DNA from: a gamma proteobacterium HIMB30
GTDB taxonomy: Bacteria; Pseudomonadota; Gammaproteobacteria; Pseudomonadales; Litorivicinaceae
DNA length: 44,165 bases
Assembly: GCA_000227525.2 (NCBI GenBank)
Contig: AGIG01000014.1
Coordinates: forward strand, 1 to 44,165
Direction of reading: 5' to 3'
Every line of letters begins with the position of its first letter. Position 1 is the first letter of the stretch. Below, piece by piece: positions 27,158 through 43,861 of the stretch. The notes beneath the pieces were generated by a model that was given only the letters and a program-made list of their open reading frames with translations, was not told the origin of the DNA and searched no databases. The position numbers were made by a program, and so were the translations under genes.

Positions 27158-27726
27158 GCGCCTACAAGCTCATCATCGGCCTCGGGAATCCTGGGGCTGA
27201 ATATGCAGAAACCCGGCATAATGCCGGGTTTTGGCTTTTGGATACTCTGGCGAATCAGCTGTCGACTCCACTATCAACCGAATCCAAATTCTTTGGCCTC
27301 GCTGGGAAGGCATTGGTTGGTTCCCATGCAGTGCATCTGTTGAAACCGATGACCTTCATGAATCGCTCAGGCCAGAGTGCATTGGCACTCGCTCAATTCT
27401 ATAAAATTGAACCGCATGAAATTCTCATCATTCATGATGAGCTCGATATTGAGCCGGGACAAATCCGACTGAAAACTGGCGGCGGTCATGGTGGACACAA
27501 CGGACTCAGGGATTTACACCGTGTCTTTGGATCGGACTATGGGAGAATCCGGGTCGGTATTGGTCACCCTGGTCACAAATCCAAAGTTCACGGGTATGTT
27601 TTGGGCAGAGCAACAAGCGAACAACGTGAACGCATTGATGATGCCATTCACCATACACTCAAATTTATGACAGACATCGTTCAGGGCAACTGGGATCAAG
27701 CCATGAATGCCCTGCATCAACGGTAG
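27154..27726 (+). CDS. pth: Peptidyl-tRNA hydrolase
   Basis: This 190-residue enzyme releases peptides from peptidyl-tRNAs that drop off the ribosome. The catalytic His is in [11 protein letters not shown] (His22), with the other conserved parts [20 protein letters not shown] and [11 protein letters not shown]. The start is GTG at 27154, overlapping the rplY stop. The ychF gene follows 10 nt later. All key residues are intact. Confidence 0.97.
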
Positions 27727-27736
27727 AGGAGATACC

Positions 27737-28828: not shown

Positions 28829-28831
28829 ACT

Positions 28832-28860
28832 TTGACAGGGGTGCGAAACTTCAGTATCTT
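28832..28860 (+). promoter_or_regulatory. Sigma-70-type promoter for tRNA-Met
   Basis: A perfect -35 hexamer TTGACA (28832-28837) is separated by 17 nt from TATCTT (28855-28860). A GC-rich discriminator, TCGCGCC, follows, and the tRNA starts 17 nt after the -10. This is the pattern of a stringently controlled stable-RNA promoter. It begins 3 nt after the ychF stop. Confidence 0.75.
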
Positions 28861-28877
28861 TCGCGCCTCTTCTGAAT

Positions 28878-28954
28878 GGCTATGTAGCTCAGCTGGTTAG
28901 AGCACAGCACTCATAATGCTGGGGTCGCAGGTTCAAGTCCCGCCATAGCCACCA
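28878..28954 (+). tRNA. tRNA-Met (anticodon CAT), elongator type
   Basis: This 77-nt tRNA has an encoded CCA. The acceptor stem GGCTATG/CATAGCC is fully paired, so this is not the initiator, which has an unpaired first base. The anticodon loop is CTCATAA with anticodon CAT. The body closely resembles the E. coli elongator tRNA-Met. A CAT-reading Ile tRNA (lysidine-modified) is the alternative but fits less well. Its 3' end is duplicated at 42048-42061, so it is the integration target of the island to its right. Confidence 0.95.
28941..28954 (+). repeat. Left attachment core (tRNA-Met 3' end)
   Basis: The last 14 nt of the tRNA, CGCCATAGCCACCA, recur exactly at 42048-42061. Targeting of tRNA 3' ends is typical of tyrosine-recombinase elements. 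A partial copy (the first seven bases) also occurs at 29150-29156 at the end of the 90-nt repeat. Confidence 0.75.
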
Positions 28955-29203
28955 CTTCTTTGTCTCACACTGTTTCATAAAGTTTCAAACCCCTCATGGT
29001 TATTAACTCTCAGCTCTATTACTTGTCTCCTGTTGTCTCACAGGGAATCAAGGAGACCCATAAATCTGCGGGTATTAGCGAGGGTATCGCGCAGAAGATA
29101 TTTTGAAATAGTGATAAATATCAAGTAGTTGAAATCAGACAATGGTGGTCGCCATATGACAGCATTTTCAAATTGCTGTTTAAGAGTATCCTCACTAGAC
29201 GGG
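28955..29203. other. Island left-end noncoding segment (249 nt)
   Basis: No gene is recognisable. Bases 28955 to about 29110 align without gaps, though diverged, with 42062 to about 42216: blocks such as ACTTGTCT/ACTTATCT, GGAATCAA and GCGAGGGTATCGC/GCGCAGGTATCGC occur at the same offsets from the CCA end. The 90-nt direct repeat occupies 29067-29156. The segment therefore looks like a short remnant unit of an earlier insertion at the same tRNA. Confidence 0.6.
29067..29156 (+). repeat. 90-nt direct repeat, copy 1
   Basis: This matches 41965-42054 base for base with no gaps and 80 of 90 identities. It starts TGCGGGTA, contains GGGTATCGCGCAGAA and AATGGTGGTCGCCATA, and ends in the first seven bases of the tRNA-end core before diverging. 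It is probably an integrase arm-binding or end sequence of the element. Confidence 0.8.
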
Positions 29204-30541
29204 TTACCTCGCTTTAAGCGCAGCACGCCAAGCATGCCAGCTCTGCTTTGGTGTACGGACCATACTGGCGTAATCAACATGCACGATCCCAAAACGCTTA
29301 CTGTAGCCGAAGGCCCATTCATAATTATCGAGTAGCGACCAAGCGAAATAGCCTTTCAGAGGTACATCTTCGTCGACCAGCGCGGCAAGTGCCGCGAGAT
29401 GGCTCTCAAAATACGCGACCCGCTCGGGATCATGCACCTCACCGGCGGCATTAAGATTGTCTGCATTCGCCATCCCATTTTCGGTGACATAGAGCGGCAG
29501 TCCCGGCGCATAGTATCGCGCCATACGGCGTAGGAAAAAGGCAAGACCTTCGGGATCAATTTCCCATCCCATATCAGTCTTCGGTAGATCGCCGCGAATG
29601 CATCTGAAACCGAGATGCGGCTCACTAGCATCGGGCGCAATCACCGAGCGAGTGTAGTAGTTACAGCCGGCCCAGTCGAGTGGCGCACTGATCAGTCCGA
29701 GATCATTCTCATAGCCGTCCGGCATATGTTGGCCAAACAGCGCAAGAACCTCTTCAGGATAGCATCCCCTAAATGTCGACTCCTCGAACCAACGATTGTA
29801 GATGCCGTCAAACAGATATGTTTTTTTTTCTGCCAGCTCCGATCCGTCGACCGGAACGGCAAACTCCTTATTCAGCACACATCCAAGATTCTGCTGACCA
29901 TGGCCCCGCATAACCTCGATAGACCGGCCATGCGCCAGCTGCACGTGATGCATCGACCGGGCGGTGGCGGCAAGATCGCACAGGCCCGGGGCATGATGGC
30001 CCCAATAATGGCTTAGGAAGGAAACGCACCAGGGCTCATTGATCGGGGCGACGCTGGCAAGCCTGTCGCCAAAATGTCGGATTACAAGATCAGTATAGTC
30101 GGCGAACCAGCCGGTCACATCACGATTCTGCCAGCCGCCGTTATTGGCGTGGCGCTGCGGCAAGTCCCAGTGATAGAGCGTAGCAAAAGGTTGCAGACTG
30201 CGCTCGAGCATCGCATCTAGAAGCCGGTCATAGAAAGCCAGGCCGTCGGCGTTCACTTCTTTGTCCGATTGCGGTAGAAGGCGTGGCCAGGAAAAGGAAA
30301 AACGATAGGCATCGAAGCCGCCATCCGCGACAAGGTCAAGATCCTCTGCATAATGGTTGTAATGATCACAGGCGACCGAACCGTCACTGCTGTCTGTAAT
30401 GGCTTCAGGTTGTCTAGCAAAACTGTCCCAGTGGGAGGCACCGCACCCCCCTTGGGCAGTGCCTTCAATCTGATAGCTCGAGGTTGCGACCCCGAAGATC
30501 ACGTCGGACGGGAAGCGGCGTATGATTTCTGTCAGGCTCAC
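29204..30541 (-). CDS. Glycoside hydrolase family 1 beta-glucosidase
   Basis: This 445-residue GH1 enzyme has the length of bacterial BglA-type beta-glucosidases/beta-galactosidases. The acid/base glutamate is Glu169 in APINEPW and the nucleophile is Glu354 in YVTENGM. The N-terminal GVATSSYQIEG and the glycone-binding WSLLDNYEWAFGY near the C terminus are intact. Residues for a phosphate pocket are not evident, which suits free disaccharides imported by an ABC system rather than PTS products. No signal peptide is seen, so it acts in the cytoplasm. The start is GTG at 30541, and the gene is the last of the leftward operon, 28 nt after the ATPase gene. Exact substrate unknown. Confidence 0.92.
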   Translation of the reverse strand: MSLTEIIRRFPSDVIFGVATSSYQIEGTAQGGCGASHWDSFARQPEAITDSSDGSVACDHYNHYAEDLDLVADGGFDAYRFSFSWPRLLPQSDKEVNADGLAFYDRLLDAMLERSLQPFATLYHWDLPQRHANNGGWQNRDVTGWFADYTDLVIRHFGDRLASVAPINEPWCVSFLSHYWGHHAPGLCDLAATARSMHHVQLAHGRSIEVMRGHGQQNLGCVLNKEFAVPVDGSELAEKKTYLFDGIYNRWFEESTFRGCYPEEVLALFGQHMPDGYENDLGLISAPLDWAGCNYYTRSVIAPDASEPHLGFRCIRGDLPKTDMGWEIDPEGLAFFLRRMARYYAPGLPLYVTENGMANADNLNAAGEVHDPERVAYFESHLAALAALVDEDVPLKGYFAWSLLDNYEWAFGYSKRFGIVHVDYASMVRTPKQSWHAWRAALKAR

Positions 30542-30569
30542 TTCGGCACCCTACCCCTCCACATAGCTT

Positions 30570-31628
30570 CTAGAACAAATGCGCGCGCACCGAATCAAAA
30601 CTGAAACGCACCTCATCGCCAACCGCAAGGTCGGTGGCCTCGCCGGAGGCGAAGCGGAACAATGTCTCGTTGGCCGACATAAGCTCGACAATGGTTTCAG
30701 TACCCAGACGTTCAACCAGAGTAACCCGTCCGACAAGTTTACCGTTTGCATTAAGCTCCAGATGCTGAGGGCGAATGCCAAGCCTTGCCGTATCGCCGAT
30801 TACCTTGCCCCTGCTTACAAGCCGCACACCACTGGCATCCAGCCCATCACCGCTGAATCCTGCTTTGGTGCCACCATCGTCAAGCTCGGTGACCTTGCCA
30901 TCAAAGAAATTCATCTGCGGCGATCCGAGAAAGCTGGCGACGAATTCATTGGCCGGTTTGTTGAACAGATCCATCGGCGCGCCAACCTGCATAACTTCAC
31001 CTTCCTTCAGCACAACGATTTTATCAGCGAGGGTCATCGCTTCGACCTGATCGTGTGTCACATAAATGGTTGTGGCGTCGAGCTGGCTGTGGAGTTTGGC
31101 TATCTCGACACGAGTATCATGACGCAGTGCTGCATCTAGGTTTGACAGAGGTTCGTCAAACAGGAATACGTCAGGGTTGCGGACAATGGCACGACCAATG
31201 GCGACGCGCTGGCGTTGGCCGCCTGAGAGCGCTGCCGGGCGACGGTCTAGTAAATGTTCCATCTGCAGGATTTTCGCAGCTGCTTCGACGCGGTCCTTGA
31301 TCTCGAGCTTTGACACACCCTGAAGCTCTAACGAGAAGGCCATATTGTGGAACACCGACATATGCGGATACAGCGCATAGGACTGGAACACCATCGCGAT
31401 GCCTCGCTTTGACGGCGGCAGGTCCATGACCGCGCGATCGGCAATCACGATTTCGCCACTGGTCAGGGACTCAAGGCCCGCAATCAGGCGAAGGAGGGTG
31501 GATTTTCCGCAACCCGAAGGACCGACAAAAACCACGAATTCACCCTTGCTGATTTCGAGATCAACGCTGCGAATGACCTCAGTCTTACCAAAGGCCTTGT
31601 TGACATTCCTCAATTCGACCTGAGCCAT
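30570..31628 (-). CDS. aglK: Sugar ABC transporter ATPase (AglK/UgpC/MalK type)
   Basis: This 352-residue ATPase has an N-terminal nucleotide-binding domain and a C-terminal TOBE domain (about residues 240-350), the MalK/UgpC architecture. Walker A is GPSGCGKST (36-44), the signature LSGGQ is at 134-138, and Walker B is FLFDEP (155-160). It would energise the AglFG permease pair. The gene begins directly after the alpha-glucosidase stop, so the two are coupled. MalK-type ATPases sometimes serve several importers, so it could also support other solute-binding proteins. Confidence 0.92.
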   Translation of the reverse strand: MAQVELRNVNKAFGKTEVIRSVDLEISKGEFVVFVGPSGCGKSTLLRLIAGLESLTSGEIVIADRAVMDLPPSKRGIAMVFQSYALYPHMSVFHNMAFSLELQGVSKLEIKDRVEAAAKILQMEHLLDRRPAALSGGQRQRVAIGRAIVRNPDVFLFDEPLSNLDAALRHDTRVEIAKLHSQLDATTIYVTHDQVEAMTLADKIVVLKEGEVMQVGAPMDLFNKPANEFVASFLGSPQMNFFDGKVTELDDGGTKAGFSGDGLDASGVRLVSRGKVIGDTARLGIRPQHLELNANGKLVGRVTLVERLGTETIVELMSANETLFRFASGEATDLAVGDEVRFSFDSVRAHLF

Positions 31629-33179
31629 CTAAATCTCCTCGAATGATGCTGTCAGCGTGTCAAAGTCAAAACAGCAGCGAATAGTCTGACTGTCCGACTC
31701 GCGATCAAACATAATCTGCCGCGGTCCACCTGTCAGCTCAGACATACGGTTCGACTCCATCATAGCAGGCTGTGCCTTACGCCATTTGAGGAAAGCGGCG
31801 AATTCATCATAAATCGAGCCGCTGCGTGATGCCTCATCGAGCGCGGCACGTTTCATATGCTGGTCGCTGATTGGCAGCCATGTCTGATTACCGATAGAAA
31901 ACCCGCCATTCGGTTCCGACTGGCGCCACACCATCGGTGTACGGCAGCTATCACGACCCGGGAAGGTCGGAGCAAACTCGATGCCCCAAGGATCCTGTAT
32001 CGCCTCACGAGGAATATCACGAGCATCCTCGAAACCGAGTTCCTCACCCTGATACACGCAGGTCGATCCAATCAGACAAGTCTCGAGCTTCAGCAGCAGG
32101 AGTTGCATCGCATCCCCCTGATCGGGAGACAAGCCAAGCGCCGCAAGCTGGCGCGTCGCCGATCTCGGCACATCATGATTTGAAAAGGCAAAAGACAGGC
32201 GGCCACTATCATTGAACTCGGCGATGGCACCAGAAATCGCGTCCTTCATCGCATCGACGCTCAGGCCGGCCCATTTCAGCAGATCGAAATTATAGGTGGC
32301 ATGAAGCCTGCCAGGCATTGTGAAGGTCGAGCTAACCTTGATCGCGTTGTCGTTATCACCGTCACATTCACCCATCAGGAACCTGTCATCATAACTGTCT
32401 GCAACCTCGCGAATCGCCCTGCTAAACAGTTGAATGGAACTCTGGTTCAACTGCGCCTCGTCATGCAGCTGTCGAAAGAAGGGTTGCTGGTCCTGCGGTA
32501 GCGGGCCCACCTCGAATTCGGGGTTTGGCGGATTATCGCGATAGGGCGCGTTGTCGCCGTTGATAGTGTGCACCGCATCAAGCCGAAACCCGTCCACACC
32601 ACGGTCAAACCAGAAACGTGCAACATCCATCATCGCCTCACGCACAGCTGGGTTGGCATGGTTCAGATTCGGCTGGCTCGGCAAAAAATTGTGCAGGTAA
32701 TACTGCTGGCGGCGCGGCTCCCAGCTCCAAGCGCGGCCACCGAAAAATGATAGCCAGTTGGTAGGAGCGGAGCCGTCTGGCTTCGGGTCAACCCAGTGGA
32801 ACCAGTCGGCCTTATCATTGTTGCGCGACGTCCGACTTTCCATGAACCATCGATGCTGGTCGGAACAATGCGCCGGCACGATGTCGATCATCAGTTTCAT
32901 ACCGAGATCATGGACATGTTCAATAAGCTCATCGAAATCATCCAGCGTCCCGTATTCCGGATTGATTGCGCAGTAGTCAGACACGTCGTAGCCGAAATCC
33001 TTCTGCGGCGAGGCGAAGAACGGACTGATCCAGATTGCGTCAACACCAAGGTCGGCAATGTAGGACAGTCGCGAGGTTATACCCAGTAGATCACCGATAC
33101 CGTCTCCGTTGGAATCCTGGAAAGACCGAGGATAAATCTGATAAATCACGGCGGTTTCCCACCATTTCAGACTAGACAA
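31629..33179 (-). CDS. aglA: Alpha-glucosidase, GH13 family (AglA type)
   Basis: This cytoplasmic GH13 enzyme of about 517 residues hydrolyses alpha-glucosides such as sucrose, maltose or trehalose. The nucleophile is Asp201 in GFRLDAVHT, the acid/base is Glu271 in LMGECDGDND and the third acid is Asp336 in FSNHDVPRS, numbered from a TTG start at 33179. That start places MSSLKWWETAVIYQ at the N terminus, has an AGGGGGG element a few bases upstream, and lies 2 nt after the permease stop. The frame stays open 76 codons further upstream inside the permease gene, but that extension has no GH13 character. Start codon and exact substrate are uncertain. Confidence 0.9.
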   Translation of the reverse strand: MSSLKWWETAVIYQIYPRSFQDSNGDGIGDLLGITSRLSYIADLGVDAIWISPFFASPQKDFGYDVSDYCAINPEYGTLDDFDELIEHVHDLGMKLMIDIVPAHCSDQHRWFMESRTSRNNDKADWFHWVDPKPDGSAPTNWLSFFGGRAWSWEPRRQQYYLHNFLPSQPNLNHANPAVREAMMDVARFWFDRGVDGFRLDAVHTINGDNAPYRDNPPNPEFEVGPLPQDQQPFFRQLHDEAQLNQSSIQLFSRAIREVADSYDDRFLMGECDGDNDNAIKVSSTFTMPGRLHATYNFDLLKWAGLSVDAMKDAISGAIAEFNDSGRLSFAFSNHDVPRSATRQLAALGLSPDQGDAMQLLLLKLETCLIGSTCVYQGEELGFEDARDIPREAIQDPWGIEFAPTFPGRDSCRTPMVWRQSEPNGGFSIGNQTWLPISDQHMKRAALDEASRSGSIYDEFAAFLKWRKAQPAMMESNRMSELTGGPRQIMFDRESDSQTIRCCFDFDTLTASFEEI

Positions 33180-33181
33180 AC

Positions 33182-34408
33182 CTAGCCCCCCTTCACTGAA
33201 CCGGCGAGCAGCCCACGGATAAAATAGCGCTGCATGGCAAGAAAAACGATGACCGGTACAATCATAGAAATCACTGCGGAGGCATTCAGCAGGTGAAGCT
33301 GGTCCTTGAAGGTTCCGAGCTGTTTTTCCAGCCTGATCGGAAAGACCAGATCGGTTCCTTCGTTCGGCCCGATGTAGAGGGCCACGATTAGATCGTTCCA
33401 CACCCACAAGAACTGGAAAATGCCGAAGCTGGCCAGCGCCGGCACCGACAGTGGTACAATCAGGCGGATAAAGATCTGGATATGGTTAGCACCATCGATC
33501 CGCGCGCTCTCCAGCAACTCGCGCGGCAGGCCGACGATATAATTACGGAGAAGATAAATCGCTAGCGGCAGTCCGAATGCCGTGTGCGTGATCCAGAGGC
33601 TAGCGAAGGTCTTTGACGGATAGGCGCAGCTCTGCGTCGCCCCACAATCCGTGACCATGGCCTTTAGCGCAGCAGCCCATGACGCAATCCCACTGAAGCC
33701 CTGCAAGATAGGAAGGAAAGCAAGCTGCGTCGGCACCACCATTAGCGACACCACAATCACAAACAACCAGTCGCGCCCGGGGAACCTCATCCAGGCAAAG
33801 GCATAAGCGGCAAAAGCAGCTATGGTAATCGGAATTATGGTCGCCGGTATTGTCACGATGAATGAAGATATCAGTGCATTCGGCACATCTTTATTCTCGA
33901 ACAACACTTCGACATACGCCTCACTTCCAAACACCGGGTCCTGGTCGATAATAGCCTCTAGATTCTTCGGTTTTGGCATGGTCGGCTCGGCAAAAGTCCA
34001 GGTGAAGTCACCATTCGCCTCGAATACGAAGACACCCTTACGGACCGCCATCTCCTCGCCAGGCGGCACCAACTTGCGAATCAGCTCAGTCTTACCAGGC
34101 TTTTCAGGATCCGGCACTCGGCCCTTGAACAGGATTGAGCGCACCTCGCCAGAAATTGGGAAGGACTGTTCGTCCTTGTTCAGTCGTTCGAAGATGTTGC
34201 CAGTGAGCTCGGTGACCTCGGCCGTCCCACCCTTGTCGTTAGTACTGAAACGGTGGCCGAGCTCGGTCGGCGTGTAAGACGTCCAAAAGCCGGAGGTCTG
34301 TGACGCGAGCTCGGAGCGCAAAGAGGTTGTGAGCAGCGCCACAAACGGGACCACCCAAATAAAGACTATCAGTCCGAGAACAACATGGCGAAGCGTACGG
34401 CCGATCAT
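33182..34408 (-). CDS. aglG: Alpha-glucoside ABC transporter permease AglG (MalG-like)
   Basis: This 408-residue inner-membrane permease has a TM helix near residues 8-28, then a long periplasmic loop of about 145 residues (roughly 30-175), then five further helices. The cytoplasmic EAA motif that contacts the ATPase is ESARIDGANHIQIFIRLIVP. The long first loop is longer than in MalG but fits AglG-type permeases. The 5' end shares one base with the aglF stop (TGATG), and aglA follows. It pairs with AglF to form the channel. Confidence 0.9.
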   Translation of the reverse strand: MIGRTLRHVVLGLIVFIWVVPFVALLTTSLRSELASQTSGFWTSYTPTELGHRFSTNDKGGTAEVTELTGNIFERLNKDEQSFPISGEVRSILFKGRVPDPEKPGKTELIRKLVPPGEEMAVRKGVFVFEANGDFTWTFAEPTMPKPKNLEAIIDQDPVFGSEAYVEVLFENKDVPNALISSFIVTIPATIIPITIAAFAAYAFAWMRFPGRDWLFVIVVSLMVVPTQLAFLPILQGFSGIASWAAALKAMVTDCGATQSCAYPSKTFASLWITHTAFGLPLAIYLLRNYIVGLPRELLESARIDGANHIQIFIRLIVPLSVPALASFGIFQFLWVWNDLIVALYIGPNEGTDLVFPIRLEKQLGTFKDQLHLLNASAVISMIVPVIVFLAMQRYFIRGLLAGSVKGG

Positions 34409-35658
34409 CAGTTGAACCCCTTCTGCTCACGCCTGATACGCCAGGCATTGAAGATCATGTTTGGAATGACTGTCAGCATCAACATAATCGCAATGGCGGC
34501 AAACAGATTATCTACATTGTCGCCACCAATGGACCAGTTGTTGCGGGCATTTTCCATCATCGTCGCCAGTAGTAGCTTGTCGTCGTCATTCGCCGACAGT
34601 GCATAGGGAATGTCGAAGACCTTCAGGACAAGAATGACGAGAGTGGTCCAGACCACCACCACGGTCGAATAAATCTGTGGCAGCTTCACCCGGAAGAACA
34701 TTTGGAACGGATTGGCACCATCGATCGTCGCAGCCTCGATGGTGTCTTGCGGCACACCGCGCAGGGCCGCTGAGAAGATCACCATAGCAAATCCCGTCTG
34801 TACCCAAACAAGAATCCACATAAGGAAGAAATTCCCCCAGAATTTCAGATTGTACAGAGGCTCATTATATTCGGCCCCATGCCCTAGCAGCGCCTTCAGT
34901 AATCCAATCTGATAAGAGGGTGTCGGGCCGTTCATCGTCATCAGGGGCTCGATGCCACCACCTGCGAAAATATTACGCCAGATCACCGCCGCGCCGACGA
35001 ACGAAATGGCAAGCGGTACAAATATAAAGGTCTTCGCAATGACGCCCCACCGAACCGAATCTGCAAGCACAGCAATCAGTAAACCAAGCGAGATACAGGC
35101 GGAAGGCACCAACACCAGCCACATCAGACTATTGCGCATGGCCAACCTGAACTGTGAATATCCGAGCGCCGCAGGATCCCACAAGAATGCGTAATTGCGT
35201 GTCGTAAGTTCGCCGCTTGCCTCCTGAAAGGATAAACTGAGCGTAGTAAAGGCTGGCACCACCAGAAACAGTAGCAACAGCAGTAGCGTCGGACCGACGA
35301 AAATCCAGGGCTGGATAGCCTCTATGATAAGTGACTCTCGCCCCAGAGCATTGCGCGATTGGATCCGCGCCAGCCCGAGATTGAGCCAGTTGGTGATCCA
35401 GAAATAAAGAAATGAAATTCCGACCGCAATCACCACGGCACGAATCGCAAAGCCGATTTTGGCGAAACGTTCTTCGGTATCGAAACGCGGGAATGTCCAT
35501 GCATACCTGTCGTGGAGCCACAGGCCCAGCGAAGCTGTCGCATCATCGAGCGGCGTCGTTACCGAAAAGGCGAAAAGCGCCGTGATCGGTAGAACACAGA
35601 CGACTGTCAGCAAGATGGCCAGGCTGTTGCCGGCGATTACGTTGTGAATAGAACGCAT
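34408..35658 (-). CDS. aglF: Alpha-glucoside ABC transporter permease AglF (MalF-like)
   Basis: This 416-residue permease has about eight hydrophobic helices. Two lie in the N-terminal third (about residues 10-30 and 70-90) and the rest after residue 115. The EAA loop is EAATIDGANPFQMFFRVKLP. Together with AglG it forms the membrane channel of the importer. It lies 112 nt after the binding-protein gene, separated by a strong hairpin, which probably lowers permease expression relative to the binding protein. The start ATG at 35658 has a modest GGAT ribosome site. Confidence 0.9.
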   Translation of the reverse strand: MRSIHNVIAGNSLAILLTVVCVLPITALFAFSVTTPLDDATASLGLWLHDRYAWTFPRFDTEERFAKIGFAIRAVVIAVGISFLYFWITNWLNLGLARIQSRNALGRESLIIEAIQPWIFVGPTLLLLLLFLVVPAFTTLSLSFQEASGELTTRNYAFLWDPAALGYSQFRLAMRNSLMWLVLVPSACISLGLLIAVLADSVRWGVIAKTFIFVPLAISFVGAAVIWRNIFAGGGIEPLMTMNGPTPSYQIGLLKALLGHGAEYNEPLYNLKFWGNFFLMWILVWVQTGFAMVIFSAALRGVPQDTIEAATIDGANPFQMFFRVKLPQIYSTVVVVWTTLVILVLKVFDIPYALSANDDDKLLLATMMENARNNWSIGGDNVDNLFAAIAIMLMLTVIPNMIFNAWRIRREQKGFN

Positions 35659-35716
35659 ATCAAATCCGACTAGCAGGACCTGTCATGACCGGGTGTCGCA
35701 CAGGTTCACATAAAGA

Positions 35717-35746
35717 GAAGAGCGCGGGGGTGAATCCGTGCTCTTC
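35717..35746 (-). terminator. Stem-loop between binding-protein and permease genes
   Basis: GAAGAGCGCGG (35717-35727) pairs with CCGTGCTCTTC (35736-35746) in an 11-bp stem with one G-U pair and an 8-nt loop. On the minus strand it is followed by TCTTTATG. Such structures after solute-binding-protein genes partly terminate transcription or protect the upstream mRNA, giving excess binding protein. It is probably an attenuator rather than a full stop. Confidence 0.6.
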
Positions 35747-35770
35747 CTCGCTAGTCAAGCAAGCCGTAAC

Positions 35771-37114
35771 TTACTTAATGGCGTCCCATGCCGCCTGAAT
35801 GTTATCGCCAGTGGTTTTAGCGTCCTGACCGTTAGCGAAGGCAGTCATCTCACTCCAGAAGGCGCCTGCGCCGATGGCACCGGGCATCAAGTCGGAAGCG
35901 TCAAACCGAAAGGTCGTTGCATTCACGAGAATTTGACCCTGCTTGCGAAGTGCCGGTGAAGAGTAGGCCGAAGGATCGGCACCCTTATGCGCAGTCAGGA
36001 ATTGACCTTGTGACATCCATACCTCATGTGCAGAAGCCTCGGTCAGATACTGGAAGAATGCGCGGGTAGCTGGCGATTCTTTGGTCATAGTGTAGATCGT
36101 ACCCGCTCCAAGAACTGGGGTGCCGAGATCAGCCGACTCGTAAGTCGGGAAGTAAAAGAAGTCGGCAATACCGTCCTCGACCTCCTTTCCTTTTTCTGGG
36201 AAAAAAGCTGGAATGAAGGATGCTTGGCGGTGCATCATGCACTTCGGTGGTGACGAGAACAAGCCCTTTGGCGCGTCACCGAAGAAGGTTGTTGCGACAG
36301 CGGCGGAACCACCAGCGACGTAATCGTCATTACGCGAGAACTGACCATATACCTCCATCGCATTCAGCACTTCAGGACTGTTGAACGGAAGCTCGTTCGA
36401 CACCCACTGGTCGTACTTCTCTGGTGATACGGTGCGGAGCATCAAGTCTTCCATCCAATCGGTAGCAGTCCAGCCGGTAGCATTGCCCGACTCCACGCCG
36501 ATGCACCACGGAGTATTGCCGTCGGCGACCATCTGATCGGAAAGTGCAATCAGCTCTTCCATACTCTGCGGAATCTCGTAACCATTGTCCTCGAACTGCT
36601 CAGGCAGGTACCAGACAAGCGACTTCAGGTCTTGCTTGAATGGGAACCCGTAGAACTTGCTCTTACCCGCTGAATCGCCATAGGTACCAAGAGCGACCCA
36701 CGAGGCCCCGGCACCATAATTGTTTGTCATCCAATTAGCCAGATCGTCGCCAAGCGGGGTCAGATGACCTTCCTTGGCCATGTCGCCTGCAAGGCCCGGC
36801 TGTGGGAAAATGGCGATGTTCGGTGCGTTGTTAGACCGCAGATCGGCAACGATCAAAGCTGCAAAGTCACGTGACCCGGAATATTTGACCACGGCACCAG
36901 TTGCCTTCTCAAAGCAGCTGGCGGTCGCCAACAGATTCTCTTCGTCCTTACCCTGCATAGAGCCAGCAATAGTGATAACTTCACCTTCGTACTTGCCAAA
37001 CTCGCCAAGCTTTGACGGCGTGTCACAGACATCAGCGGCCGCGACGCCGACGTAACCAATTGATGCCATTGCAGCCGCAGCGGCCATGCCAAAAATTTTT
37101 TTATAAATTATCAT
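35771..37114 (-). CDS. aglE: Alpha-glucoside ABC transporter substrate-binding protein AglE
   Basis: This 447-residue periplasmic protein belongs to the extracellular solute-binding family 1 (MalE-like). The N terminus has basic residues, a hydrophobic run rich in Ala and an AAA-D type cleavage site near residue 28. I placed the start at the ATG 37114, where GGGAGAA lies a few bases upstream; the frame runs further upstream without signal-peptide logic. It is the first gene of the aglE-F-G-A-K-GH1 operon. The match to AglE rests on the operon order and length; trehalose, sucrose, maltose or glucosylglycerol are all plausible ligands. Confidence 0.88.
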   Translation of the reverse strand: MIIYKKIFGMAAAAAMASIGYVGVAAADVCDTPSKLGEFGKYEGEVITIAGSMQGKDEENLLATASCFEKATGAVVKYSGSRDFAALIVADLRSNNAPNIAIFPQPGLAGDMAKEGHLTPLGDDLANWMTNNYGAGASWVALGTYGDSAGKSKFYGFPFKQDLKSLVWYLPEQFEDNGYEIPQSMEELIALSDQMVADGNTPWCIGVESGNATGWTATDWMEDLMLRTVSPEKYDQWVSNELPFNSPEVLNAMEVYGQFSRNDDYVAGGSAAVATTFFGDAPKGLFSSPPKCMMHRQASFIPAFFPEKGKEVEDGIADFFYFPTYESADLGTPVLGAGTIYTMTKESPATRAFFQYLTEASAHEVWMSQGQFLTAHKGADPSAYSSPALRKQGQILVNATTFRFDASDLMPGAIGAGAFWSEMTAFANGQDAKTTGDNIQAAWDAIK

Positions 37115-37391
37115 TTGTTTCTCCCGAGCACACAAACTGACTTGAAGAGCGTATCGCATATTGATTCCAAAAAAAAACAATCCGCACACAGTCGAATAGA
37201 AAATATCAAGAAATTTAAACAATTCTCAAGCGGACACTGCATTTATTGGATTACTAAATAATTTTTGTGAAAACCCATCCTGCAACAGACCGTTGAACCA
37301 TAGATATCTAGACATCGCGGAACGGGTGTCGAGAATCGCGTCACCGTTTAATACTACCTTTTAGGACAAGCTTTATGCCTGGCATCATTCC
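37115..37391. other. Noncoding gap upstream of aglE (277 nt)
   Basis: This AT-rich gap separates the agl operon from the monooxygenase cassette and holds no recognisable gene. On the minus strand a candidate promoter lies at 37200-37229. A perfect 10-bp palindrome, TAGATATCTA, is at 37301-37310, but alone it is weak evidence for an operator. No LacI-type regulator gene such as aglR is near. Confidence 0.5.
37200..37229 (-). promoter_or_regulatory. Candidate promoter for the agl operon
   Basis: On the minus strand, TTGAGA (complement of 37224-37229) is followed 18 nt later by TATTTT (complement of 37200-37205), about 86 nt upstream of the aglE ATG. Five of six and four of six bases match consensus. 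The region is AT-rich, so chance matches are likely. Confidence 0.35.
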
Positions 37392-37889
37392 CTATGACTT
37401 TACCGTCATCATTTGCCCTTTAAAAAATCCTAAACCGTCACCTTCAAAGGTTCGCAATGTCTTCACCTCGCCGAGGATGATGTCGTGGTCGCCACCTCGG
37501 TAAACCTCAGTTTGCTGGCATTCGAATACAGCTAAACATTGGGGAATAATAGGCACGCCATATTCACCTCCAACCAAGTCCCAATCGCCAAAATCTCTAG
37601 CATTTTTTACGATTTTGAACGCGAGATCGCCTTGCTGGGCTCGGAGAACATGAATTGCATAATGTTCTGCATACCGAAACATGTCATACCGTGAACCGTT
37701 TCGATCGATTGACCAGAGAACTAACGCTGGATCTAATGACACTGAGGCAAAACTATTGACAGTAATACCTACGGGACCCTGCTCCGTTTGCGCTGTAACG
37801 ATAGTTACCCCAGTCGCGAAGTGTCCAAGCGAGTTCCTAAGAACCTTGGGATCGATCCCTATCGACTCATCAAGCATACATTGCATCAT
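37392..37889 (-). CDS. Flavin reductase domain protein (candidate SmoA-type FMN reductase)
   Basis: This 165-residue protein of the flavin-reductase-like (HpaC/RutF-type) family shows GHFATGVTIVTAQ and GITVNSFASVSLDPALVLWSI, the FMN-binding core. Such enzymes supply FMNH2 to a partner monooxygenase using NAD(P)H. I chose the ATG at 37889, which overlaps the aldo/keto reductase stop as ATGA; a second ATG follows directly, and the upstream in-frame extension is inside the reductase gene. It is the last gene of a three-gene leftward operon whose first gene encodes an FMNH2-dependent monooxygenase, so they are very likely partners. In the sulfoquinovose monooxygenase pathway this role is filled by SmoA. 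Confidence 0.88.
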   Translation of the reverse strand: MMQCMLDESIGIDPKVLRNSLGHFATGVTIVTAQTEQGPVGITVNSFASVSLDPALVLWSIDRNGSRYDMFRYAEHYAIHVLRAQQGDLAFKIVKNARDFGDWDLVGGEYGVPIIPQCLAVFECQQTEVYRGGDHDIILGEVKTLRTFEGDGLGFFKGQMMTVKS

Positions 37890-38773
37890 GCGACTTCTCG
37901 GCCGAGGGCGGCTGTGTAAAGCTCGAACCAAGTTTCGCGATCCATCGAAATTTGGGTGGCCGCATGGAGCTTACGGATCCGTTCTATATTGTTGGTGCCC
38001 AACACAGGAACAATTTTGGCGGGGTGCGCCAATAACCAAGCAATTGCAACAGCATCAGCTATCGAACCTAGACGCGTTGCCACGGTCTCTAAGGCTGCGT
38101 TAAGGGAATGATTCTCAAATAATTCACCTCCAGCTAGTGGCGACCAAGCCATAATTGGACAACGATGACGTTGAAGATGGGCCACGTCACCCTCAACCAG
38201 CGGATGGTGATTAGCCAGACTTAACTCGATTTGATTGGTCACTAAACGGTGGCTCATTGCGCTCTGCAGGAGCTCTATATCCCAGGGCCTAAAGTTCGAT
38301 ACTCCTGCTCCCTTAATTTTGCCCTGGTCTATCAGCGCATCTAGGGTAGAACCCGTTTCCTCTTGATCCATAAGCGGATCAGGCCGATGAATTAACAATA
38401 GATCGATGTAGTCGGTACCGAGATCCCTCAGTGACTGCTCGACACACGCCACAATATGGGCTCGAGAGGTATCATAATGTTTGACTCGATGATCAGCGAA
38501 TCGACCTGCGGGCCAGACAATATCGCATTTGCTGACAATTTCTATTTGCTGTCTTAGACCTGGGGATTCCCTTAAAGCCTTTCCGAACTCTGCCTCAGCA
38601 GTATAGGCACCATAAATGTTTGCCTGATCTATGGTGGTTATCCCCTGCTCGAGACATGCATCTAACTTTGCAATAGTAGCTTCCGTACTATGAGAGGGAT
38701 CATCCGTGAGTCGCCACATTCCGTAGACCAGACGACTAATCTCGATGTCGTCACTTAACTTCACTCGTTCCAC
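37886..38773 (-). CDS. Aldo/keto reductase (candidate SmoB-type 6-oxo-sugar reductase)
   Basis: This 295-residue TIM-barrel oxidoreductase of the aldo/keto reductase superfamily resembles the YdhF branch. The catalytic tetrad is visible: Asp49 and Tyr54 (DQANIYG), Lys82 (VSKCDI) and His129 (LLLIHRPD). The cofactor region near the C terminus includes VPVLGTNNIERI. It lies between the monooxygenase (1-nt overlap) and the flavin reductase (4-nt overlap). In the sulfo-SMO pathway an aldo/keto reductase (SmoB) reduces the 6-oxo-glucose left after desulfonation to glucose; the same role is inferred here from context. Other aldehyde or ketone substrates remain possible. Confidence 0.88.
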   Translation of the reverse strand: MERVKLSDDIEISRLVYGMWRLTDDPSHSTEATIAKLDACLEQGITTIDQANIYGAYTAEAEFGKALRESPGLRQQIEIVSKCDIVWPAGRFADHRVKHYDTSRAHIVACVEQSLRDLGTDYIDLLLIHRPDPLMDQEETGSTLDALIDQGKIKGAGVSNFRPWDIELLQSAMSHRLVTNQIELSLANHHPLVEGDVAHLQRHRCPIMAWSPLAGGELFENHSLNAALETVATRLGSIADAVAIAWLLAHPAKIVPVLGTNNIERIRKLHAATQISMDRETWFELYTAALGREVA

Positions 38774-39942
38774 TATTTTCTCACTCCGCTAGCAAGTGCT
38801 GTTTGAGGACTCTCGCTTGGAACCCGGCCATATTCATGGGGTAACGAACACGTCTTCAATTCGGGCATAACCAGGCGTCCAAAATATTCAGCCTCCTGAA
38901 TGTGGGGATATCCCGAGAAGATAAACGCCCTCATTCCCATCCTTCGGTACTCTTCTATACGCGTGAGTATTTGATCGGCTGACCCTACAAGAGCTGCGCC
39001 ACATCCGGATCGTGCCCTACCAACACCGGTCCATAGACCAGGCTCGACATACCCTGATTGATCTGCGTGATCGCGATTCGCAGACTGATGAGCGACACCT
39101 AGAGACGTTGAATCCAATGCTCGGTTACGAATAGCAGTCCCGTGATCGTCATCGAGTTTCGATACCAGGTAATCTGCGTATTCGCGGGCCTCAGCCTCGG
39201 TATCGCGCACCACCATATGAACTCTCAATCCATAATCGAGCGTTCGACCATACCTCTGTGCTACCTGATGAACAGCCTTCATTCGTTCTGCTAACAGCTC
39301 TTTTGTTTCCGGCCACATCAGATAAACGTCGCAATATTGCCCACAGAGCTCGAGAGCGTCAGGAGAGTAACCGCCGAAATAGAGCAATGGACCACCGTCT
39401 TGGTATGGCTTGGCTGGGTCGCTTGGAACCTCTGATATCTCGTAGATATCCCCACTATACATGATGGAATCTTGCAACCAGGCTTGCCTGAGAATCTCAA
39501 TGACTTCCCGTGATCGCTGATATCGGTAACTACTGTCAGCTTTTTCACCCGGAAAATCAGAGCTAATGATATTGATGGTTAACCGACCTTTTAGCATGTG
39601 ATCTAAGGTTGCGACTGTCCGTGCGAGCATCACTGGCTGCATTTCTCCGCAGCGGACCGCAGCGAGCAGGTTGATTTCCTTAGTTATGGGTGCACAGCCA
39701 GCAACAAAACTTAAAGTATCTTGGCCAACTTGATATGAGGAAGGGCACAAAATATTCCGGAACCCCTGCTCTTCGGCTTTTAAAACAATATTGGAACAAT
39801 GCTCCCAAGAGGACCTTAAATCACCATCAGGAACACCTAAGAATTGAAAATCGTCCGAACAAAGCGCGGAGAACCAGGATACTTCAGAAGATGTGAGTCC
39901 TTCGGAAGTAACCGGAACTACAAGTGTCATCAAATCATCCAT
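38773..39942 (-). CDS. FMNH2-dependent sulfonate monooxygenase, SsuD family (candidate sulfoquinovose monooxygenase)
   Basis: This luciferase-like monooxygenase of about 389 residues is closest in pattern to SsuD alkanesulfonate monooxygenase. Residues that line the SsuD sulfonate site have counterparts: Trp in YLMW (about 210), Arg240 and His242 in LRVHMVV, Arg311 in GVGRARSGCG, and Tyr345 in FSGYPH. The SsuD Cys54 position is not conserved. It leads a coupled operon with an aldo/keto reductase and a flavin reductase, the combination known for SmoC-B-A, which removes sulfite from sulfoquinovose. The start is uncertain: ATG at 39942, a later ATG at 39930 or a TTG at 39951. Substrate is inferred from context only. 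Confidence 0.88.
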   Translation of the reverse strand: MDDLMTLVVPVTSEGLTSSEVSWFSALCSDDFQFLGVPDGDLRSSWEHCSNIVLKAEEQGFRNILCPSSYQVGQDTLSFVAGCAPITKEINLLAAVRCGEMQPVMLARTVATLDHMLKGRLTINIISSDFPGEKADSSYRYQRSREVIEILRQAWLQDSIMYSGDIYEISEVPSDPAKPYQDGGPLLYFGGYSPDALELCGQYCDVYLMWPETKELLAERMKAVHQVAQRYGRTLDYGLRVHMVVRDTEAEAREYADYLVSKLDDDHGTAIRNRALDSTSLGVAHQSANRDHADQSGYVEPGLWTGVGRARSGCGAALVGSADQILTRIEEYRRMGMRAFIFSGYPHIQEAEYFGRLVMPELKTCSLPHEYGRVPSESPQTALASGVRK

Positions 39943-39949
39943 GTGAATC

Positions 39950-39995
39950 AATTGTATATCAATTTAAACACTACCATTTCGTGATATATGTATCA
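39950..39995. promoter_or_regulatory. Candidate operators for the divergent GntR regulator
   Basis: Two inverted repeats lie in the gap between the monooxygenase and gntR genes: AATTG-TATAT-CAATT (39950-39964) and TGATA-TATG-TATCA (39982-39995). Both contain related TGTAT/ATCAA elements, the size and AT-rich style of GntR-family operators. The first overlaps the monooxygenase start region, so binding there could block that arm directly. The flanking sequence is AT-rich, which lowers confidence. Confidence 0.4.
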
Positions 39996-40075
39996 ATAGT
40001 AAATCAATTTATTTATTTTTTTATGGATTTACGTCATCCTTCGTCGCAGAGATTAACTTTCAAGAACAAAGAAAC

Positions 40076-40777
40076 ATGGAAGAACACCACGAATCCCCTG
40101 TCCCGAGATATCAAGAAATCGCCAAGCTGATTGCTTTAGAAATCCAGGATGGAACGCTCGATCATGGGTCGCGCTTGCAACCTGAGAGAGATTTAGCTGT
40201 CCAATTTGGCGTCTCGGTCGGAACGATTCGAAAGGCTCTTTTTAATCTTGAACAAGAAAGTTTAATTAAACGAGTTCATGGATCGGGTAATTATGTAAAC
40301 GCTGATCAACGAGATCCTATCTATGCGATGTTTCGCCTCGAGCTTAAATCTGGTGGTGGCAAACCGACTGCTACGATCCTCGACATTTCAGAAGAAATTA
40401 CGCCACAGAGCCTTAGGACCCTGGGAGCATCCGAAGGGGGCACACGAATCAGGAGACTGCGGTATTTAGATAATAATCCCATAGGTATCGAGGAAATTTG
40501 GTTAGATCAAAGGGCTGGCAGGCTGGATCACAACAACGTCCACGATTCGCTATATGCGACCTATCGCGAACAATTGGATCTTTGGGTGTCACGGGCAGTC
40601 GATCGAGTCAATAGAAAGCCGGTCCCTGAATGGAGTCCAACCGAGTTTAAACTGCCAATTGGAACCATTGCTGGATTCATCGAACGACAAACCTGGGATC
40701 AAAATGATCGTGGCGTCGAAATATCATGGACTTGGTTTGATCCGGCTCAAGTAAATTATGTTCAGCATTTAAGGTGA
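40076..40777 (+). CDS. GntR-family regulator, HutC subfamily (UTRA domain)
   Basis: This 233-residue regulator has an N-terminal winged helix-turn-helix (about residues 8-76, with RYQEIAKLIALEIQDG, LQPERDLAVQFGVSVGTIRKAL and VHGSGNYV) and a C-terminal UTRA ligand-binding domain (about 90-230, with RIRRLRYLDNNPIGIEEIW). HutC-type repressors usually sense a pathway sugar, phosphate sugar or related metabolite and control neighbouring genes. It is divergent from the monooxygenase operon across about 130 nt and lies 4 nt before the Gfo/Idh gene, so it probably controls both arms. The ligand may be sulfoquinovose or a derivative, by inference. The Shine-Dalgarno sequence is weak. Confidence 0.92.
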   Translation: MEEHHESPVPRYQEIAKLIALEIQDGTLDHGSRLQPERDLAVQFGVSVGTIRKALFNLEQESLIKRVHGSGNYVNADQRDPIYAMFRLELKSGGGKPTATILDISEEITPQSLRTLGASEGGTRIRRLRYLDNNPIGIEEIWLDQRAGRLDHNNVHDSLYATYREQLDLWVSRAVDRVNRKPVPEWSPTEFKLPIGTIAGFIERQTWDQNDRGVEISWTWFDPAQVNYVQHLR

Positions 40778-40781
40778 GCGC

Positions 40782-41897
40782 ATGCATTTAAATTATGGAT
40801 TAATTGGTTGCGGCATGATGGGGCACGAGCACCTCCGGAATATAGCGCTAATCGAAGATGCAACCGTCGTCGGAATAGTTGAGCCGGATGACAGTATGGC
40901 TTCTAAGGCCACGCAAATTGCACCAACTACCCAGCGGTATCCGAGTATTCAATCACTCCTCGAAAACCCAGATCTGAATTGCCTTGTGATTGTTTCACCC
41001 AACCATTGTCACGTAGAGCAGTTGAAACTGGTGCAGGAACTTCGTCCGTTACCAATATTGGTCGAAAAACCTTTGTTTACCTCTCCTGACGATCTGGCCG
41101 CGCTTGAATCATTTATTGCGTCATACAGTAAGCCTGTTTGGGTTGCGATGGAGTATCGATACATGCCGCCAATCGCTCTTCTGCGCGAAAAAGTACACGA
41201 GCTTACTGGAGGAATTAAATTACTCACGATTAGAGAGCATCGTTTTCCGTTCCTTCAAAAGGTAAACGACTGGAACCGATTCAATGCACAATCGGGCGGA
41301 ACCCTCGTTGAAAAGTGCTGTCACTTCTTTGATTTGATGCGACTACTTCTGCAATCAGAGCCAGTTCGCATATACGCATCGGGAGACCAAGCGGTAAACC
41401 ATGTCAATGAAGTCTACGACGGCAAGAAATCAGATATTTGGGACAACGCGTATGTCACGATCGATTTCGCAAACGGTGCCAAAGCCATGCTGGAGCTTTG
41501 TATGTTTGCTGAAGGGTCTCGATATCAGGAAGAAATCAGTGCCGTCGGGCATCTAGGAAAAGTCGAAACTTTTATACCTGGCCCTGGAAGATTTTGGCCT
41601 CCTCATCTGGGTGAGCCACCAATAGCTGAAATGATCGCCAGTCCCCGAAATCCAGCAGGTCCAACCTCAGTCCAAATTCCAGTTGAACCAGTCCTTCTTC
41701 AGGCTGGCGATCATAATGGGTCGACTTTCTATCAACATCGTTTCTTTGCCGAAGTTTGCAGAGGACAGCGAGCAAAGCCTGAAGTTACGTTAACCGATGG
41801 ATTGAAGGCGGTTCAGATGGGATTAGCTGCTCAGTACTCTGCCAGGACCGGACAAGCGGTCGAATGGCCTCCTTCCCACGAGCAATTATCAACTTGA
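40782..41897 (+). CDS. Gfo/Idh/MocA-family oxidoreductase (candidate NAD-dependent sulfoglycosidase)
   Basis: This 371-residue protein has an N-terminal Rossmann fold (GCGMMG, residues 9-14, and the EKP motif at 95-97 with the conserved lysine). The C-terminal substrate domain carries GGTLVEKCCHFFD (about 172-184), whose His181 and Asp184 fit the usual catalytic pair. The family mostly oxidises or reduces sugars with NAD(P), but some members (for example GH4-like-mechanism and GH188 enzymes) use NAD to cleave glycosides. In this setting, beside a sulfonate monooxygenase and without any GH31 sulfoquinovosidase, a role in releasing sulfoquinovose from its glycosides is attractive but unproven. 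It is translated 4 nt after gntR with an AGGTGA site. Confidence 0.88.
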   Translation: MHLNYGLIGCGMMGHEHLRNIALIEDATVVGIVEPDDSMASKATQIAPTTQRYPSIQSLLENPDLNCLVIVSPNHCHVEQLKLVQELRPLPILVEKPLFTSPDDLAALESFIASYSKPVWVAMEYRYMPPIALLREKVHELTGGIKLLTIREHRFPFLQKVNDWNRFNAQSGGTLVEKCCHFFDLMRLLLQSEPVRIYASGDQAVNHVNEVYDGKKSDIWDNAYVTIDFANGAKAMLELCMFAEGSRYQEEISAVGHLGKVETFIPGPGRFWPPHLGEPPIAEMIASPRNPAGPTSVQIPVEPVLLQAGDHNGSTFYQHRFFAEVCRGQRAKPEVTLTDGLKAVQMGLAAQYSARTGQAVEWPPSHEQLST

Positions 41898-41964: not shown

Positions 41965-42054
41965 TGCGGGTACTAGAGCGGGTATCGCGCAGAAAATATT
42001 TTGAAATAAGGATAGATATCAGGTAGTTAAATTCAGACAATGGTGGTCGCCATA
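41965..42054 (+). repeat. 90-nt direct repeat, copy 2
   Basis: This is the partner of 29067-29156 (80 of 90 identities, no gaps). Here it runs directly into a complete copy of the tRNA-Met 3' end, whereas copy 1 stops after the first seven bases of that core. This marks it as the right end of the island. Confidence 0.8.
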
Positions 42055-42061
42055 GCCACCA
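42048..42061 (+). repeat. Right attachment core (tRNA-Met 3' end copy)
   Basis: CGCCATAGCCACCA is identical to the last 14 nt of tRNA-Met at 28941-28954. No tRNA body precedes it, so it is a recombination scar and not a tRNA gene. Confidence 0.75.
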
Positions 42062-42358: not shown

Positions 42359-43861
42359 ATGCGCGTGCAAATACTAAATTACTGGAAACTGAGGCTACTG
42401 GCCCTCGCCGTTTTTGGTGTCGGCTCACCCAGTAATCCTCTTCACGCAAATGTGGAAATGGATGGCATTGTTCGTCATTTAAACCTATCCGTTTCTGATC
42501 GAATTATTTCGTCCCAAACACATCAATTGAGTCCTCAATTCAGTCAACTATTTCTCACAACTGCGGAGCTTAATCGGCATACCGTCATGCAATATTTCTC
42601 CAAGCACCCTACTGAGGTGATGGCGTTTAGAGCCTACATGCAACAGCTGGTCGACCTTGGTGTACTTTCCGGAGACAGTGCAGAGGGTCTGGTGATCTCT
42701 GCGTTTAAGGCTCTGGAAATGGCCACGCAGAAAGAGACGCTCAAACAACGAGAAATTGCTGAATCAACGCAGCCACATAAGCACTCTGATCTCAATCTCT
42801 CGATCCTCAATAATCCGCCAGACGCATCAGATAAGTCTGTAGCACCATTGCCGTTACTTGACTCTTCGCAATCTGAAATGCTGGATTTCGGGGACAATCT
42901 TGAACAGGAGCAAAAAGCCTCACTAGCAGCTGACGAACTCGAGAACGCGCTTGAGGAACAACAACGTCTCGAACGCAATACAAAGCTTGCGCGTGCGCTG
43001 ATCGACGAATTTTCGCAAGGTAATCCAACCCCCGAGTCTCTCGGAAAACGAGTTGAAAGGGTGGTCACTGAGTTTGCAGAAGTTGAATCAAAAAAGCAGG
43101 CGGAAACGTTACTAGACAATGTCGAAGTCTCAATTACCTCCTTGCGAAATGGTCCAGAGTATTCGGTCCGTGGACTGAAAGCGTTTGATAATTTAAACCC
43201 CAATTATTTTTCCTTCACGGAATTTGGCCTAACTGTCAATGACGATGACTCAACAGTCAATATCGGAATCGGAATCCGCAAACTCTCTGATGATCAAACG
43301 GTCATGGGTGGTGTCAACGCGTTCTATGACCAAGAAATCGATACTAATCATAAGAGGGGATCGATTGGTATCGAATTAATTAGCGCCCCGTTTCGGTTCA
43401 ACGCCAATCGCTACTATGCGCTGAGTGATGGCTACCAATTAACAGCGCTTCAAACCGAAAAACCACTATCAGGGCATGACGTAGATGTCGAGGTGGCCAT
43501 TCCCTACTTACCCGGTCTATATGCTGGTTATAATCAATCGAAATGGTACGGAGAAGACAACGCCACAGATATCGAGCGGAAAATTTATCGGCTCGGGGGT
43601 AACCTTTCCCAAAACGTCAGTGTCGAGATTGGTAAAAGGACCTACAGCTCGAATATTGAAGATCAAAATACCGCGAAGCTTAGCTACAACTACGTGTTCG
43701 ATGCGGATACCGATGAGCCCAAGATTCTCAATATCGACACGCAACCCTATCGCCATAGGAAAATCGGACCACGAGAGCGGTATCGCATGGTGGAACGTCA
43801 AAACAAGATCGTAACCCAGGTCTCTCAATCTGGATTAACGGTCACCTTTACGGCGCTATAA
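42359..43861 (+). CDS. Inverse autotransporter beta-barrel protein (intimin/invasin type), without passenger
   Basis: This 500-residue exported protein has a signal peptide of about 30 residues ending near PLHA. A helical region of unknown role follows, with a Glu/Gln-rich coiled coil (about 175-215). The inverse-autotransporter beta domain spans about residues 284-455 (FSFTEFGLTVND, VMGGVNAFYDQEID, LSYNYVFDAD). The conserved segment after the barrel, RYRMVERQNKIV, is present, but the protein ends 15 residues later. In intimin and invasin this point leads into extracellular Ig-like domains, which are absent here. The next gene starts 3 nt downstream and may supply them. The ATG has GGAG upstream. 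Confidence 0.85.
   Translation: MRVQILNYWKLRLLALAVFGVGSPSNPLHANVEMDGIVRHLNLSVSDRIISSQTHQLSPQFSQLFLTTAELNRHTVMQYFSKHPTEVMAFRAYMQQLVDLGVLSGDSAEGLVISAFKALEMATQKETLKQREIAESTQPHKHSDLNLSILNNPPDASDKSVAPLPLLDSSQSEMLDFGDNLEQEQKASLAADELENALEEQQRLERNTKLARALIDEFSQGNPTPESLGKRVERVVTEFAEVESKKQAETLLDNVEVSITSLRNGPEYSVRGLKAFDNLNPNYFSFTEFGLTVNDDDSTVNIGIGIRKLSDDQTVMGGVNAFYDQEIDTNHKRGSIGIELISAPFRFNANRYYALSDGYQLTALQTEKPLSGHDVDVEVAIPYLPGLYAGYNQSKWYGEDNATDIERKIYRLGGNLSQNVSVEIGKRTYSSNIEDQNTAKLSYNYVFDADTDEPKILNIDTQPYRHRKIGPRERYRMVERQNKIVTQVSQSGLTVTFTAL

Follow-up and report, generated by a model that had tools for sequence, protein, structure and literature searches.

A candidate Roseobacter-type sulfoquinovose cassette, with an ABC importer in the place of the TRAP genes, in a probable OM252 gammaproteobacterium

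In this study, we analysed a stretch of 44,165 nucleotides (the window; G+C content 51%) from strain HIMB30, whose genome comprises 2,168,870 bases in 36 contigs, and we propose that it carries a marine Roseobacter-type cassette for sulfolysis by sulfoquinovose monooxygenase (sulfo-SMO) together with a sulfoquinovosidase of glycoside hydrolase family 188 (GH188). From the sequence comparisons presented below we put the probability of this reading at roughly nine in ten. HIMB30 has been described as a strain of the OM252 clade from Kaneohe Bay (PMC8269220), in a paper the main text of which contains neither the word 'sulfoquinovose' nor the word 'sulfonate', and the host of the cassette is a probable OM252 gammaproteobacterium. 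An original prediction for this DNA had placed the enzyme set for sulfoquinovose (SQ) desulfonation at positions 37392-41897; these limits are too narrow, and the same-strand block at 29204-37222 as well as the ends of a surrounding island (Table 1) belong to the unit.

The enzymes of the cassette

Judging from characterised relatives, SqgA with its bound NAD+ would free SQ from sulfoquinovosyl glycerol (SQ-glycerol), SmoA would supply FMNH2, SmoC would use FMNH2 and O2 to convert SQ into sulfite and 6-oxo-glucose, and SmoB would reduce 6-oxo-glucose to glucose, while the divergently encoded GntR/UTRA protein probably controls both sides. The genome also encodes a single sulfite-oxidase-like Mo-co dimer protein, which would take up the sulfite released by the cassette. 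All five genes named in the original prediction are open on the strands and at the coordinates assigned to them there, as seen in a check of open reading frames (ORFs), and the predicted operon of an SsuD-type monooxygenase, an aldo/keto reductase and a flavin reductase, divergent from a GntR regulator, is borne out by the Pfam families; its three minus-strand genes overlap or abut. Scans for promoters and terminators gave a signal no higher than that of shuffled sequences.

The product of 38773-39951 is 75% identical to the structure 7olf and 72% to 7oh2, both of which we take to be SmoC, whereas MsuD and SsuD structures match it at just 2.2e-57 to 5.8e-53, and the 2.17-Mb genome has no other Bac_luciferase match (E up to 0.001). 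Residues W206, R236, H238 and H343, presumably the active site of SmoC, are all present. A phylogeny, which had been suggested as a check on the original prediction, did not group the monooxygenase with the alkanesulfonate enzymes; in a tree of 92 rows, SsuD and MsuD lie outside the SMO clade and the split has a Shimodaira–Hasegawa-like approximate likelihood ratio (SH-aLRT) support of 100. By sequence, the enzyme is thus a member of the SmoC clade and falls short of the SsuD/MsuD family on both cut-off and clade. That it serves alkanesulfonates for sulfur supply, as SsuD or MsuD do, would agree with its best NCBIfam name, alkanesulfonate monooxygenase, but is very improbable given a score of 240 bits where the family's cut-off is 518, the position of SsuD/MsuD in the tree and two sugar-pathway neighbours, SmoB and SqgA, that would be left without a role; the identity of an alkanesulfonate enzyme is ruled out by scores and tree. 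For the SmoB-like protein, the match to 7bby, which we take to be SmoB, is followed by a far weaker next family at 1.4e-68, and the SmoA-like protein is 31-52% identical to the proteins in the same place in the named loci. The core of the original prediction, consisting of a SmoC-clade monooxygenase, a SmoB-like reductase and a flavin reductase in the place of SmoA, has therefore held up.

The fifth gene had been regarded as a Gfo/Idh protein added to the cassette. We find instead that it is a predicted NAD+-dependent sulfoquinovosidase, SqgA, of family GH188. After the GH188 structures (Table 1), the next Gfo/Idh match drops to 8.4e-14. The entries 8qc2 and 8qc3 are characterised NAD+-dependent sulfoquinovosidases. 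In ArSqgA, the reported contacts are Lys107, Tyr136, Glu163, Arg166, Leu170, Lys172, Glu189, His193 and His321 (PMC10755693), and R166, L170 and K172 have been assigned to the sulfonate site (PMC11465081). When the published numbers were placed on the 8qc2 chain by best-fit register, eight of the nine contacts fitted, Glu163 being the one that did not, and at each of these eight positions the window's protein has the same residue (K96, Y125, R154, L158, K160, E177, H181 and H311). Sequence match and contact residues (8/9) therefore both assign the protein to GH188, a family that is found in sulfo-SMO clusters and is near-universal in those of Roseobacter, which are without GH31 (PMC10755693). 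The original prediction was right that a GH31 sulfoquinovosidase is missing; however, because the Gfo/Idh protein is predicted to be a GH188 SqgA, the cassette would have a sulfoquinovosidase of its own and would not need GH31. An inositol dehydrogenase was considered (110 bits against a cut-off of 355) and was dropped after the GH188 match. In the sister-genus genome G022 (L093, C219), the sqgA gene contains one in-frame TGA and is either broken or misassembled.

Several points weigh against this reading of the cassette. NCBIfam has no SMO model, and the best name that it returns is the one given above, far below its cut-off. For 7olf, 7oh2 and 7bby, the PDB table does not use the names SmoC and SmoB but lists methanesulfonate sulfonatase, alkanesulfonate monooxygenase and aryl-alcohol dehydrogenase, and a literature search for the three codes found no papers. 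The putative smoA gene is assigned by family and place alone. With regard to the donor branch, the place of SmoC within the alphaproteobacterial part differs between two trees.

Table 1. Predicted features of the island in window coordinates; family and structure matches are given with E-values unless stated as bits, and percentages are identities
Feature	Position	Strand	Evidence and remarks
tRNA-Met, left island end	28878..28954	+	ARAGORN; similarity to congeners stops at or shortly after it
Direct repeat R1	29067..29156		80/90 identical to R2
GH1 glycosidase	29204..30541	-	Glyco_hydro_1 1.5e-129
UgpC/MalK-type ATPase	30570..31628	-	NF008653 451 bits, above cut-off of 432
GH13 alpha-glucosidase-like, long ORF	31629..33407	-	Alpha-amylase 3.5e-117; true start near 33185 (by eye)
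aglG-like permease	33182..34408	-	NCBIfam sugar permease matches; 83% to HIMB11
aglF-like permease	34408..35658	-	BPD_transp_1; 84% to HIMB11
aglE-like ABC sugar-binding protein	35771..37114 (ORF to 37222)	-	SBP_bac_1 8.4e-17; 83% to HIMB11
smoA-like flavin reductase	37392..37931	-	Flavin_Reduct 1e-31; true start probably near 37889 (by eye)
smoB-like aldo/keto reductase (putative 6-oxo-glucose to glucose)	37886..38773	-	Aldo_ket_red 3.7e-52; 7bby 6.3e-118
smoC-like flavin-dependent SQ monooxygenase	38773..39951	-	Bac_luciferase 5e-49; 7olf 1e-199; 7oh2 1.8e-193; tree
GntR/UTRA regulator	40076..40777	+	UTRA 9.1e-17; GntR 7.3e-15
sqgA, predicted GH188 NAD+-dependent sulfoquinovosidase	40782..41897	+	GFO_IDH_MocA; 8zn9 4.5e-146; 8qc2 1.8e-108; 8qc3 1.9e-107
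Direct repeat R2	41965..42054		80/90 identical to R1
att-like exact repeat of the last 14 bp of tRNA-Met	42048..42061	+	2 sites in window, 0.01 expected

Distribution, probable transfer and the tRNA-Met island

Using a scan of a GTDB-based collection, we found at least 585 stretches encoding a SmoC relative and compared the best 80 of these (the 80 loci), nearly all of which come from Rhodobacterales or Roseibium, with one labelled as a Granulosicoccaceae and one as an Acidobacteria metagenome-assembled genome. The layout of the cassette appears to be more than chance because sqgA-gntR is divergent from smoC-smoB in 73 of the 80 loci; the remaining seven comprise four that are cut by a contig end, two without a visible SqgA and one that is differently arranged. 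Closer to home, SmoC is present in 5/369 sampled genomes of the window's class (E up to 1e-100) and in 4/57 genomes of relatives, its own genome included in both cases; these four are two of the 22 genomes of its own genus (G000 and G015, 98% identical) and two of the three sister-genus genomes (68-69%). Among 25 family genomes, SqgA is present in the same four as SmoC. A SmoC relative is encoded in 23 of 72,556 plasmid records, 11 of them at 60-80% and 12 at lower identity, and none of the 50 pattern matches in viral contigs was one. Sulfo-SMO has been reported mainly from alpha- and betaproteobacteria (PMC12890257, PMC9594981) and has been extended to Actinomycetota, Spirochaetota and a single Vibrio (PMC13372026). 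Our literature search, which did not cover the transport statements of one Roseobacter SQ paper (PMC9938184), found no publication describing OM252 bacteria that use SQ or SMO cassettes that contain an Agl importer.

It is likely that the cassette was acquired horizontally, apparently from Roseobacter-like bacteria, because the window's SmoC is nested in alphaproteobacterial sequences in the trees, whereas the SmoC of the sister genus lies outside them. Forcing the four SmoC rows of the family into one clade costs 75.2 log units and is rejected by the approximately unbiased (AU) test (p 0.0115), and vertical descent shared with the sister genus's SmoC is rejected with it. What the original prediction called a gammaproteobacterial version is thus better described as a cassette of the Roseobacter type whose host is probably a gammaproteobacterium.

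The tRNA-Met gene is an insertion hotspot. Its 3' end and the 14-bp copy lie 13.1 kb apart with the cassette block in between, and in ten stretches from congeners the similarity that runs in from ychF stops within 28954-29074, although some of these contigs end there. The stretch has the features of a tRNA island, in that the 3' end of the tRNA recurs at the opposite border and congeners carry different cargo: in G001 (L142 5375-15988), about 10.6 kb of other DNA separate tRNA-Met from a 51-nt copy of its end, and in G014 a tyrosine integrase adjoins the same tRNA-Met. Within 29204-41897 no integrase was found among the 11 protein genes, all of which were scanned with Pfam and NCBIfam. We also observed that the G001 cargo includes TRAP, FAD oxidoreductase and LamB/YcsF genes, that G014 encodes Cas9, followed by Cas1 (Pfam) and a short ORF in the place of Cas2, about 10 kb from the tRNA-Met (L151 2548-7028), and that an inverse autotransporter beta-domain gene lies at 42359-43861 of the window, just beyond the right end of the island.

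The importer stretch

According to the original prediction, there was no dedicated transporter of the SmoEFGH type inside the cassette. An ABC (ATP-binding cassette) sugar importer nevertheless follows directly downstream on the same strand, in the place where most Roseobacter cassettes have a tripartite ATP-independent periplasmic (TRAP) transporter: after smoA, the window has genes for a binding protein, two permeases, a GH13 enzyme, an ATPase and a GH1 enzyme. TRAP dctM or dctP was seen within 6 kb after smoA in 51 of the 80 loci; the other 29 comprise two with a HIMB11-type Agl block, two with only another Agl block, two with an ABC binding protein like that of G023, 18 with none of these and five with too little DNA after smoA to judge. 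Compared with the congener G015, the TRAP stretch has been replaced by an AglEFGAK-type ABC importer and a GH1 gene. On contig C407 of G015, the end of smoA is followed by an ORF at the position of dctQ, by dctM and dctP, by a gene for a di-haem peroxidase (CCP_MauG) and then by tRNA-Met and ychF; the two ends of this contig align to 37375-37631 (77%) and 27681-29027 (84%) of the window, and the roughly 4.5 kb between the aligned ends correspond to 8.35 kb in the window. The sqgA-gntR-smoC-smoB genes of G015 are on a separate contig, C57, which is broken inside smoB and is presumably linked to C407, and its dctM matches as two pieces with about 67 residues absent between them, through decay or an assembly fault. 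An SQ-type DctP was found in four of ten genomes tried (G426 100%, G015 84%, G107 78%, G022 71%), the other six having distant paralogues at most, including the window's genome (31%) and HIMB11 and MOX_bin107 (27%). An SQ-type DctM was not found in five genomes, the window's and four of the HIMB11 genus, where the best matches were 33-39% plus one partial piece at 42% in G428, and the ABC binding protein of G023 was found in only one of the ten genomes tried, G023 itself. As side observations, an ABC sugar-binding protein occupies the same place in G023 (L100 758-2032), L049 and L060, that of G023 being 71-72% alike to two Roseobacters, and the SQ TRAP genes of G015 and of many Roseobacter SMO loci are followed by a CCP_MauG-like di-haem peroxidase gene (L119 3081-4796; L003 15643-17352).

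A parallel is found in the HIMB11 genus. HIMB11 is reportedly also a Kaneohe Bay isolate. In HIMB11, MOX_bin107 and G427, an Agl block follows smoA, with proteins 74-84% identical to those of the window, and the three loci (L028, L029 and L157) have the identical ten-gene order; they differ from the window in the presence of glpD beside sqgA and, for L028, in the absence of GH1 after the ATPase. A LacI gene sits between smoA and the Agl block in MOX_bin107 and not in HIMB11, G427 or the window. Across the genus, the binding protein is encoded in 4/4 genomes and SmoC in 3/4. The Agl and smo halves of the island seem to have different histories, because the window's binding protein is closer to the HIMB11 genus (80-83%, versus 49-57% in other lineages) while its SmoC is no closer (75-76%, versus 73-79% to other named loci); the G+C content agrees with this (53.7% in the Agl part and 47.2% in the smo part). 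However, SmoC would be compatible with a shared source of both halves, since a single clade of the window's and HIMB11 SmoC is not rejected (p 0.158). The gene beside sqgA in the three HIMB11-genus genomes is like that of a DAO/glycerol-3-phosphate dehydrogenase (L028 6489-8054, L029 and L157), which fits glycerol release from SQ-glycerol.

What the importer carries can be read in two ways. We lean slightly towards the view that the Agl block simply imports alpha-glucosides and happened to land next to the cassette, in which case SQ would either use some unrecognised importer or not enter the cell. G024 and G428 carry the binding protein or the Agl block apart from SMO, TRAP and another Agl block coexist in eight of the 80 loci, the two halves differ in G+C content and the genome has several distant TRAP systems; on the other hand, TRAP was replaced at this very place within the genus and a second lineage without an SQ-type TRAP shows the same arrangement, both of which argue against a chance neighbour. 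The second reading is that the gate for SQ was exchanged in place, in that an AglEFGAK-type alpha-glucoside ABC importer, whose binding protein has a basic residue in a conserved loop, stepped into the role of TRAP and now imports SQ-glycerol, itself an alpha-glucoside, or SQ, both in HIMB11 and in the probable OM252 bacterium. We regard this as a tentative proposal, rather doubtful on present evidence. It would account for the position of the block directly after smoA on the same strand, for the fact that the usual SQ-type TRAP was not found in the window's genome, HIMB11 or MOX_bin107, for the identical arrangement in three of the four HIMB11-genus genomes and for the absence of LacI from the junction in all but MOX_bin107. 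It would also give a role to R82 in the binding-protein loop, which reads GS-R-D-F in 4/4 members of the group (window, HIMB11, MOX_bin107 and G024) and GS-D/N-S/D-F in 14/14 others, and which may touch the ligand. However, in G024, a genome that is 78% complete, the same binding protein with this loop is encoded next to a tRNA-Lys and no SMO was found, G428 carries the Agl block without SmoC, TRAP and Agl can coexist as noted above, and one of the genes of the block encodes a GH13 enzyme for neutral alpha-glucosides. Absence of TRAP is moreover not specific, since G116 has SMO with neither an SQ-type TRAP nor a G023-type ABC protein. The predicted structure of the binding protein is poor, with a mean pLDDT (predicted local distance difference test) of 60.3 and long stretches below 50, and no PDB entry named as SmoF was matched by it at E up to 10, a weak test as entries carry their depositors' names.

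Relation to known systems and significance

The Agrobacterium sulfo-SMO system uses a GH31 sulfoquinovosidase and an ABC importer of the SmoF type. The window likewise encodes SmoC- and SmoB-like enzymes and a flavin reductase, but has GH188 where Agrobacterium has GH31. The SsuD and MsuD alkanesulfonate monooxygenases belong to the same luciferase-like family and lie outside the SMO clade. The closest likeness is to the Roseobacter-type cassette (PMC10755693), which has the same genes in the same order, sqgA-gntR divergent from smoC-smoB-smoA; the window differs in having AglEFGAK and GH1 for TRAP and in a host that would be outside the alphaproteobacteria. The kind of system and its gene order were therefore known, and our additions are the predicted GH188 identity, the likely transfer, the island at the tRNA gene and the exchanged stretch of importer genes.

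SQ, a sugar of plants and algae, is produced in amounts of about ten billion tons per year (PMC10755693). A complete route from SQ-glycosides to glucose and sulfite in small-genome marine plankton that do not belong to the alphaproteobacteria would add to the organisms that return this sulfur. The exchange of the importer also shows that a survey which relies on GH31 or on known SQ importers can misinterpret such genomes, and it opens the evolution of SQ uptake to direct testing.

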